Source of the DNA: a virus | Direction: 5' to 3' (one strand) | IMG/VR virus record: IMGVR_UViG_3300008055_000213 | Location: 1-31,408 of that record | Length of the DNA stretch: 31,408 bases | In this document: piece by piece, positions 10,236-28,058 of the stretch | Layout of the letters: the number at the start of each line of letters is the position of its first letter | How positions within the stretch are numbered: position 1 is the stretch's first letter | Notes under the pieces: generated by a model | Databases searched by the model: none | What the model saw: the letters and a program-made list of their open reading frames with translations, nothing else | What the model was told of the DNA's origin: nothing | Program-made: the position numbers and the translations under genes

Positions 10236-10291
10236 GGACCGCAATTAAGTGTGCCGCTGCCCAGTGGCCCAAACAATACCCAGGAGTGCAC

Positions 10292-10459
10292 ATGGCACGA
10301 GTGCGTCTAATCGCAAATGAGCCGCGCTGGATTCCACTGATTCAACGTCTCATTGACGTTGATGAAGCGTTTGAGGTGGACGACAAAGTCTTCGCTGAGC
10401 GCGTGTGGCCAGAGGACACCTTTGAGGTATTAACCGACATCAAGGAAGGCAAGGAATAA
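10292..10459 (+). CDS. Small hypothetical protein before tail tube
   Basis: A 55-residue gene from ATG 10292, with CAGGAG at 10281-10286 as a clear ribosome binding site. The product starts MARVRLIANEPRWIPLIQRL and is acidic in its second half (VDEAFEVDDKVFAERVWPEDTFEVL). No family is recognised. Small genes at this position, between tail terminator and tail tube, are common in actinophages. About 56 bases before it hold only the leader. Confidence 0.65.
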   Translation: MARVRLIANEPRWIPLIQRLIDVDEAFEVDDKVFAERVWPEDTFEVLTDIKEGKE

Positions 10460-10462
10460 ATC

Positions 10463-25422: not shown

Positions 25423-25746
25423 ATGAGTGACATCCAATGGGATGAGTTCGGTGCAAGTGAATTCGTCAAGTTTGGCGCAGTAGGCGACACGATCAGTGGC
25501 AAGATCACGAACATCCGCATCGGCCAGGACTTCAATGGCAACCCATGCCCCGTGCTCGACCTCGACACAGGCAACGGCTCACGAACAGTGACCGCTGGTC
25601 AAGCCAACCTGAAGTCACAGATCGTGCAGCTCCGCCCAAGTGTCGGCGACGCCATTAGCATTACCTATGATCGGGATGAGAAGGCTGAGAAGGGCATGAA
25701 GAAGGTGTTCGCCATTAAGGTGGACTCCAACACAGCACCCTTCTAG
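25423..25746 (+). CDS. OB-fold single-stranded DNA-binding candidate
   Basis: A 107-residue acidic protein. The pattern AVGDTISGKITNIRIGQDFN, PCPVLDLDTGNGSRTVTAGQ, LRPSVGDAISITYDRDE and KKVFAIKVD is that of a five-strand OB-fold as seen in small actinophage ssDNA-binding proteins. Lack of a long disordered acidic tail differs from classical bacterial SSB. Position between the exonuclease and the primase-helicase genes supports a role in replication or recombination. Confidence 0.6.
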   Translation: MSDIQWDEFGASEFVKFGAVGDTISGKITNIRIGQDFNGNPCPVLDLDTGNGSRTVTAGQANLKSQIVQLRPSVGDAISITYDRDEKAEKGMKKVFAIKVDSNTAPF

Positions 25747-25921
25747 CAAGACTTGTCGCGCTGGGCTGCGTTGACAAACGCCTCCCTGCTCTATTCTACG
25801 GAGCAGGGGGGCACCACCCTCCCAGGTGAAAAGCCCACACAACTGAATAGCACCGGCCTCACGTGGGGAAGCGTGGGGCCGGCGCCACAGTGACAAGCAG
25901 CCCACGATCAAGGAGTCACAC
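25747..25921 (+). ncRNA. Structured leader with two long stem-loops
   Basis: A 175-base non-coding gap. Hairpin 1 pairs 25780-25791 (GCCTCCCTGCTC) with 25801-25812 (GAGCAGGGGGGC): 12 pairs, one of them T-G, nine-base loop. Hairpin 2 pairs 25853-25863 (CCGGCCTCACG) with 25872-25882 (CGTGGGGCCGG): 11 pairs, one T-G, eight-base loop TGGGGAAG. A weaker CACC/GGTG pair lies between. AAGGAG at 25910-25915 then serves the primase start. No U run follows either stem, so they are not ordinary terminators. A structured RNA, cis-regulator or replication origin is possible. Confidence 0.5.
25771..25797 (+). promoter_or_regulatory. Possible rightward promoter
   Basis: TTGACA at 25771-25776 and TATTCT at 25792-25797, with a short spacer of 15 bases. 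The -35 box is perfect and the -10 fits TANNNT, but the spacer is suboptimal and the -10 lies in the loop of the hairpin at 25780-25812. It would drive the primase-helicase genes. Confidence 0.4.
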
Positions 25922-26521
25922 ATGAACATCGCTTCAATGAACGACCAGCAGCTCATCGATGCTTACGACGATGTCGTGGCCGATGAGCCAGCACGCATCA
26001 GGTTCCTAGAATTACTTGACCAGGTGGATGCGGACAAGCACGCATTCCTGCGACGACCACAGGCCCTCGCCGAGTCCGCGAAGTGGTACGCCGAACAAGG
26101 CATTGCAGTATTCCCACTCCAGCCACGGAGCAAGGTCCCCATGCGTGGATCAAGTGGGTGCAAGGACGCCACCACGGACGTTGACAAGGTCACGTCCTGG
26201 TGGACACAAATGCCGAACGCGAACATTGGCATGGTCACAGGGTTCCAGTTTGATGTCATTGACGTGGACGGACCAGATGGGTTCGAGTCACTGTCCCACC
26301 TGAAACCGATAGCCAATGTGCTTGCATCGGTGATCACTCCACGGGGGCGACACATCTACGTCAAAGCAAAGCCTGAACGCAAGAACGGCACGAACCTTAA
26401 ACTTGGTGTGGACTTCCGCGCCAGTGGTGGATACGTTGTCGCGCCACCATCAATCAACGCCGAGGGTAAGATTTACACCTGGCTGATCACACCAGAGCAC
26501 TTGGTGAAGCATTGTGAGTGA
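25922..26521 (+). CDS. Bifunctional DNA primase/polymerase (prim-pol)
   Basis: A 199-residue archaeo-eukaryotic-type primase domain that makes primers and may extend them. After about 45 helical residues it shows AKWYAEQGIAVFPLQPRSKV (53-72), the metal-binding DVIDVDG (Asp114 and Asp116), TPRGRHIYVKAK with a likely catalytic His, and VDFRASGGYVVAPPS near 164-178. All are characteristic of the prim-pol family. It is encoded separately from, but overlapping by eight bases with, the helicase. As no DNA polymerase gene is present, this is central to replication start. Confidence 0.9.
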   Translation: MNIASMNDQQLIDAYDDVVADEPARIRFLELLDQVDADKHAFLRRPQALAESAKWYAEQGIAVFPLQPRSKVPMRGSSGCKDATTDVDKVTSWWTQMPNANIGMVTGFQFDVIDVDGPDGFESLSHLKPIANVLASVITPRGRHIYVKAKPERKNGTNLKLGVDFRASGGYVVAPPSINAEGKIYTWLITPEHLVKHCE

Positions 26522-28058
26522 TGATGGGCTAGACGATTGGGAACGCAAACTCTTTGGTGACAAGCCACAGCAAGCACCAGATGCAGTGTTCAACAATGTG
26601 GTGAACATCAACAAGAATCAAGACATTCGCGCGTACTCGCTTAAAGCGTTAGGCGAGGAACTCCACGACGTTGCCAACGCACCAGAGGGAACACGAAACC
26701 ACACACTGAACAATGCCGCGCTCAAACTTGGCACCCTTGTTGCTGCTGGTGGACTGACACAGCTCGAAGTGATCCAACCATTACTTGATGCCGCCATGGG
26801 TAATGGGTTGCCGGAGTCTGAGGCCGTGGGCACAACACGCTCAGGGTACGAGTTTGGGCTACTGAACCCGCGAGAGATACCAAACAGCGTTGACCTGTTA
26901 GACGCCTTCATACGCGAATACACCGACATTACCCCCACACCTAGCCCAATTACCCCAGAACAGGGGCAACGTGCCTTAGAAGGGCACACAGAGCCTCTAA
27001 AGGGCATTGAGCCTGACGAGGACGATGAGCCGGCCTTACCCTACGCCGATCTCACCTGGGCAGCCAATGGGGAAGTGCGACCACCCACCCTGCCCAGCGT
27101 AGGTGAACGCAACGACGGTGCACACATCCTCTACGCCGGCAAGATCAATGGCATCTATGGCGACCCTGAAACCGCAAAGACGTGGTTCGCCCTACACCTC
27201 GCACAGCAGGTACTCAGCGCTGGTGGCACAGTCGCACTCATCGACATTGACCACAACGGTGAAAACGACACAGTGGACCGGTTACGCAAACTTGGTGTCA
27301 GTAATCAGCTCATCGGCGACCCAGCACACTTCCGTTATTACATCCCAGAGACACCAGCCGAACTCCTAGCCACCCGCGATGACATCATTGAGCAGCACCC
27401 CACGTTGTGCATCCTGGACAGCATCGGTGAACTCATCCCCATGCTCGGACTGGACAGCAACAGCAACGACGACATCAGCCGCGGATACCGCGCGATGCTC
27501 ACACCACTAGCACAAGAACACACCGCGGTCCTGACCATTGACCACCTCGCCAAAGCAGGCAAATCAGATCACGGCTACGCCATCGGCGGCATCGCCAAGA
27601 AACGAATCATCAACGGTGCCTACTACCACGCCGAAGCACTAACCATTCCCGCACCAGGCATCGTGGGCAAAGTGCGCATCATGGTCACAAAAGACCGACC
27701 AGGAGGAATCCGCGAACACGCACCACAAGGCTCACTCGGCAACTTCATCATCGACTCCAGCGCCAGCGACGGACACGTCAACGCACTCATCGCTAACGTC
27801 ATCGGCAGCCCACTACGACCAACAAACGCAATGGAACGAATTTCTCGCCTACTCGCCGGCAACGACGGGATGCATAAGACCACGATTGGCAAGGATGCCG
27901 ACGTAACCAAAGCAGTCACATTGAACCAAGCCCTCCTCGTCCTTGTGCAAGAGGAATACGTGCGCACTGGCCAAGTCGCCGGCAAGACGATCTACTACCA
28001 CGAGCGCGATTATCGTCAGCTCGACGAGGAACTTAACAGCCTGAACAAAGCGGACTAA
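26514..28058 (+). CDS. Replicative helicase-like ATPase (RepA/AAA_25)
   Basis: A 514-residue protein from GTG 26514. The N-terminal 110 residues include a helical domain (RNHTLNNAALKLGTLVAAG) typical of primase-associated C-terminal domains, followed by an acidic linker. The RecA-like core has Walker A GDPETAKT at 216-223 (Ala instead of the second Gly), ALIDIDHNG near 241-249, Walker B LCILDSIGE near 298-306 and a TIDHLAKAG segment near 341. A C-terminal winged-helix-like part follows (SRLLAGNDGMHKTTIGKDAD). Likely a hexameric helicase working with the prim-pol. Confidence 0.87.
   Translation: MSDDGLDDWERKLFGDKPQQAPDAVFNNVVNINKNQDIRAYSLKALGEELHDVANAPEGTRNHTLNNAALKLGTLVAAGGLTQLEVIQPLLDAAMGNGLPESEAVGTTRSGYEFGLLNPREIPNSVDLLDAFIREYTDITPTPSPITPEQGQRALEGHTEPLKGIEPDEDDEPALPYADLTWAANGEVRPPTLPSVGERNDGAHILYAGKINGIYGDPETAKTWFALHLAQQVLSAGGTVALIDIDHNGENDTVDRLRKLGVSNQLIGDPAHFRYYIPETPAELLATRDDIIEQHPTLCILDSIGELIPMLGLDSNSNDDISRGYRAMLTPLAQEHTAVLTIDHLAKAGKSDHGYAIGGIAKKRIINGAYYHAEALTIPAPGIVGKVRIMVTKDRPGGIREHAPQGSLGNFIIDSSASDGHVNALIANVIGSPLRPTNAMERISRLLAGNDGMHKTTIGKDADVTKAVTLNQALLVLVQEEYVRTGQVAGKTIYYHERDYRQLDEELNSLNKAD

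Follow-up and report, generated by a model that had tools for sequence, protein, structure and literature searches.

What does a 175-nt gap do inside an otherwise compact replication operon? The window, by which we mean the complete 31,408-base IMG/VR virus record, carries the gene order protein P3 (SSB-like), gap, prim-pol and helicase. An initial annotation described two long stem-loops in the gap and offered a regulatory leader for the replication genes, a separate small RNA or a replication origin as explanations. Our analysis confirms and extends that observation, and partly supports the interpretation.

Genomic context

The features of the locus are as follows.

25423..25746, + strand: protein P3, SSB-like gene located 5' of the candidate leader (open reading frame; family alignment with PF C-terminus)
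25747..25921, + strand: structured gap, candidate leader of prim-pol (RNA fold z -6.1; consensus fold kept in relatives)
25910..25915, + strand: Shine-Dalgarno (SD) of prim-pol, AAGGAG (read from the sequence)
25922..26521, + strand: prim-pol gene, P0001 (PF09250, E 3.8e-34)
26514..28058, + strand: RecA/AAA-type helicase gene (PF13481, phrog_97, phrog_6012)

We call protein P3 SSB-like on the basis of its PF tail, its gene position and a low-confidence OB-like structural model, for which the best structural matches were not significant. About 400 actinophage records contain relatives of the SSB-like family with the PF tail (L053:3027-3407; L059:2984-3361), annotated there as hypothetical proteins. 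The window's terminase finds its closest counterparts in Arthrobacter phages, although at 34% identity, and the host is likely actinobacterial. The gap had seemed to stand out in a genome where genes otherwise overlap, but overlap turns out to be local to this operon and long gaps occur elsewhere (e.g. 10236-10462).

A conserved RNA fold with compensatory changes

Folded as + strand RNA, the gap reaches -87.9 kcal/mol compared with -62.3 +/- 4.2 for shuffled sequences (z -6.1), and no shuffle equals it. This exceeds the values for the - strand RNA (z -3.5) and for the + strand folded as DNA (z -3.4), a difference that we count in favor of a leader acting as RNA. Two further gaps in the window, folded as controls, give z -1.0 and -0.2. 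Both strong stem-loops are present, with 13 and 12 pairs rather than the 12 and 11 reported earlier. Hairpin P3 has the stem 25780-25792/25800-25812 (13 pairs) and the loop ATTCTAC, and hairpin P5 has the stem 25853-25864/25871-25882 (12 pairs) and the loop GGGGAA with a U-G closing pair. The initial annotation had found these two main hairpins but missed another at 25815-25828 and the closing helix 25752-25769/25897-25912.

Scanning IMG/VR for relatives with prim-pol, helicase and DNA-pattern queries yielded seven more contigs with the full element. Six distinct leaders (the window, L002, L003, L006, L009 and L012) were aligned and examined with RNAalifold and by pair counting. A single consensus fold of 53 pairs fits all six, with 98.1% of cells occupied by standard pairs, and its elements lie in the window as follows.

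25752..25769, + strand: helix P1 (closing), 5' side (consensus; two G-U changes in L006, rest invariant)
25770..25779, + strand: mini-hairpin P2 over TTGACA (consensus fold; invariant)
25780..25812, + strand: hairpin P3, 13 bp (one double change and one inserted A-U pair in L006)
25815..25828, + strand: hairpin P4, loop CUCCYA (C-G to U-A in L003 and L006)
25850..25886, + strand: hairpin P5 (double changes at three pairs)
25864..25871, + strand: invariant P5 loop TGGGGAAG, which with the G before it gives GTGGGGAAG (hairpin and motif scans)
25897..25912, + strand: helix P1, 3' side, overlapping the start of the SD (consensus fold)

Five pairs have changed on both sides, all in hairpins P3, P4 and P5 and including both main stems, whereas slid partners give 0-1 such pairs and shuffled alignments a mean of 1.9, with 3 of 500 shuffles reaching the observed five; the sample is small, the sequences are related and the structure was derived from the same six leaders. 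These compensatory changes, which rise above both controls, support a conserved structured RNA, the outcome that the alignment of related phages proposed at the outset was meant to detect. G-U states outnumber A-C states 6 to 1, an excess that is partly circular as evidence because the fold allows G-U. Helix P1 is near-invariant, with only two pairs varying (both to G-U in L006), so most of its pairs are uninformative, and mini-hairpin P2 is without covariation support because it is invariant as well.

By eye, the P4 loop UCCCA could possibly form a kissing contact with the P5 loop UGGGG. We set aside a pseudoknot between CUAUUC in the P3 loop and GAAUAG (25845-25850), which are complementary in the window, since L003 carries GAACAG and the loop is shifted in L006, leaving the pairing without covariation support. 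A second conserved word, CACAGTGA..GCAGCCCA, was sought outside the known family and discarded because its additional matches are due to chance.

The SD of prim-pol is paired in the consensus and lies partly inside helix P1. Its accessibility varies among the relatives, and placing a ribosome at the SSB stop in simulation produces a non-uniform response. Given these mixed simulation results, we rejected translational coupling through a ribosome at that stop codon.

The leaders of L002 and L009/L012 are 97-99% identical, and yet the prim-pol behind the L009-L012 leader differs (41% DNA identity across the initial 300 nt; the proteins are 47% identical where they match). The leader has thus been retained through an exchange of the replication module. 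The regions L009:652-3031 and L012:10037-13082 hold this divergent prim-pol together with a different next gene. Between the window and L006, the leader is 76% identical and the third codon positions of protein P3 are 56% identical.

An invariant loop at a fixed distance from the prim-pol start

The apex of hairpin P5 is an eight-letter loop, UGGGGAAG, that is invariant in all nine leaders. Three of these come from further lineages (L030, L053 and L059) that were recovered by a hairpin scan of the collected loci. There the hairpin is on the sense strand between the SSB-like gene, with its PF end, and prim-pol, but the stems differ in build and show no sequence relationship. These three loci have the hairpin only, with no clear SD sequestration, and prim-pols across the lineages are 37-47% identical. 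Only four independent lineages carry the loop before prim-pol.

From the end of the loop to the prim-pol start is 50-53 nt in eight of the nine leaders (the exception, L059, has 39 nt), whereas the distance from the SSB stop to the loop ranges from 25 to 124 nt. This near-constant spacing on one side and variable spacing on the other indicates that the hairpin's position is set by where prim-pol begins. Comparison of the sequences thus shows the pairing, the constancy of the loop, the start-codon spacing and the position of the SD inside P1.

The 9-mer GTGGGGAAG, which is at the hairpin apex in 9/9 leaders so that the loop begins with GTG, is present just once in every one of 10 carrier records, always at this site. 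Its 10 copies in 42 other prim-pol phage records include none in a hairpin. We also examined stretches of ten annotated phages, chosen for their related prim-pol or SSB-like genes (WXIN, Bobby, Nebkiss, Rabbitrun, Peas, Dagobah, TPA2, prophiFSQJ01-1, phiGD17-1 and Dulem virus 32), and none of these stretches showed the loop on a hairpin. In TPA2, a 14-bp stem on the opposite strand carries CGGGGAAG. In the M. abscessus prophage prophiFSQJ01-1 (L126:997-1175), long hairpins occur in the 179-nt gap after the SSB-like gene.

The same loop in other settings

Among the matches listed, UGGGGAAG also caps 15-17 bp hairpins with U-runs in another phage group, where they lie between the genes for prohead protease and major capsid protein; the nearest annotated relative of this group is Pontimonas phage phiPsal1.

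L226:6770, L235:7189, L241:629, L247:549, L249:825, L255:2403, L274:164(-), L280:1169: U-run terminators with the UGGGGAAG loop, among the matches listed
L249:2186, L247:1908, L241:1989, L274:1528(-), L280:2529: terminators with the AGCGCAGG loop

The L280 terminator has a different stem and keeps the UGGGGAAG loop. The second set of terminators lies 3' of the major capsid gene, where the 8-nt loop AGCGCAGG is kept and the stem varies. The UGGGGAAG terminators weaken any argument for a prim-pol-specific loop. Their presence in other phages means that the loop may be favored for stability and not for a binder.

We considered whether UGGGGAAG could be a general terminator loop of hosts. The word GTGGGGAAGC shows no enrichment relative to its reversed control in sets of 16 and 297 bacterial genomes, and its contexts in 20 small actinobacterial genomes include no convincing hairpin. 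Therefore, the loop does not appear to be one that hosts commonly use for termination, and we dropped this idea. The reversed control word, CGAAGGGGTG, has 386 copies in one actinobacterial genome (G203), suggesting a dispersed repeat. Two actinobacterial genomes (L371:1502 and L375:1502) contain a hairpin with the TGGGGAAG loop in closely similar surroundings.

Searches for known RNA families

An Rfam covariance search at the gathering threshold gave no matches in the window, L006, L030, L053, L059 or L249; under permissive settings, the sole match in the gap was a chance lncRNA (E 2.8). A resemblance to cobalamin riboswitches had been suggested earlier, but it amounts to a few short shared words, and neither this nor any other known riboswitch class receives support from Rfam. 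Our searches of the literature and Rfam yielded neither a report of an mRNA operator controlling a phage prim-pol nor an RNA family that fits the leader.

A candidate operator hairpin for prim-pol

Our best explanation, to which we give about an even chance of being correct, is that the gap acts in cis as an mRNA leader for the prim-pol/helicase part of the operon, with an operator hairpin that would control prim-pol translation in the manner of T4 gp43. The + strand transcript is predicted to fold into a closed multi-branch structure in which P1 closes around hairpins P3, P4 and P5. Hairpin P5 would present the UGGGGAAG loop about 50 nt 5' of the prim-pol start codon, and helix P1, which covers part of the SD, could add occlusion. 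A protein on the P5 loop, P1 hiding the ribosome site, or both might limit prim-pol synthesis to what is needed. We infer action as RNA, translation as the controlled step and the identity of the binder, which by analogy with T4/RB69 gp43 is probably prim-pol itself in an autogenous arrangement. One point against a leader of this kind is that very different prim-pols would all have to read one loop. The regulatory reading in the initial annotation nevertheless gains support from the compensatory changes, the closing helix containing the SD and the hairpin locked to the start codon.

In T4, the operator hairpin precedes the start of the polymerase gene by about 40 nt, and the T4 and RB69 operators have identical top 10 bases but differ in hairpin length (PMC3014915). 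The candidate operator is likewise a hairpin tens of nucleotides 5' of a replicative polymerase start, with a loop or top that is constant among relatives and a lower stem that varies. However, the regulated protein here would be an AEP prim-pol (PF09250) rather than a gp43-family DNA polymerase, the loop is UGGGGAAG rather than the UAAC type, and the hairpin of the window family is embedded in a 175-nt multi-branch leader. Because P0001 is a PF09250 Prim-Pol, the element can only work like the gp43 operator and does not belong to its class. The autogenous pseudoknot operator of T4 gene 32 (SSB) is also a structured leader of a phage replication protein, but it precedes the SSB gene itself, whereas the structure described here follows an SSB-like gene and precedes prim-pol.

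Competing explanations

The main rival holds that hairpin P5 acts in single-stranded phage DNA as the site where prim-pol starts a primer, which would make the gap a replication origin. We consider this unlikely, and at the same time a serious alternative because the invariant loop starts with GTG, as it does in all nine leaders. For priming, the Prim-Pol of pRN1 requires a template GTG, and synthesis begins opposite the two bases that lie 5' of this motif (PMC8076596). The pRN1 origin forms a stem-loop whose loop carries GTG (PMC3869888, PMC4234260), and RSF1010 RepB' recognizes a hairpin with an adjacent GTG (PMC4434180). Like the pRN1 origin and RSF1010 ssiA/ssiB, the gap combines a hairpin and a GTG motif near a gene for a prim-pol-type primase, the motif has one copy per genome, and the neighboring genes encode SSB-like, prim-pol and helicase proteins. 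In contrast, the pRN1 stem-loop is 3' of its gene with a 58-nt loop and tolerates GTG point mutations, and the ssiA GTG is outside the hairpin, while here the loop is an invariant octamer and the position is locked to the start codon. The hairpin is always in the sense orientation and upstream of prim-pol, and relative to shuffles the + strand folds better as RNA than as DNA. A skew turning point had been put forward as a sign of an origin, but cumulative GC skew has its minimum near 28-29 kb and makes no turn at 25.8 kb, although skew has little power when a genome is read in a single direction. Thus, of the origin proposal, the GTG likeness to prim-pol priming sites stands, and the skew and the fixed spacing argue against it. 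We regard it as quite doubtful, but conceivable, that prim-pol reads the UGGGGAAG hairpin in both ways, as an mRNA operator and as a single-stranded DNA priming site through GTG.

Alternatively, the element might be an operon-internal processing or attenuation hairpin that stabilizes or cuts the SSB-like mRNA or attenuates transcription before prim-pol, with UGGGGAAG being merely a stable loop. Hairpins are common after the SSB-like genes of other actinophages, and the U-run terminators described above use the same loop, but we find this explanation unlikely. The gap contains no terminator-like sites and no U-run after its GC-rich hairpins, in agreement with the earlier view that ordinary termination is improbable; moreover, the loop position tracks the prim-pol start and not the SSB stop, and the loop word is unenriched in bacterial genomes. 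A separate small RNA with its own promoter at TTGACA (25771-25776) could draw on this box and on the strong structure, but it is very improbable. The box was correctly reported, but it sits inside the structured region rather than upstream of it, in mini-hairpin P2, and transcription starting downstream would cut hairpin P3. No -10 match is found at 16-18 nt spacing, which led us to reject the promoter, and the gap offers no terminator match for such a transcript.

Implications

The invariant octamer loop is a precise and cheap target for separating operator from origin. If hairpin P5 is an operator, it would show how small phages that swap the prim-pol module keep one control element. If prim-pol instead uses the hairpin in both RNA and DNA, enzyme supply would be tied to origin use, and the loop would represent a new family of RNA/DNA signals kept across phages with exchanged prim-pol modules.
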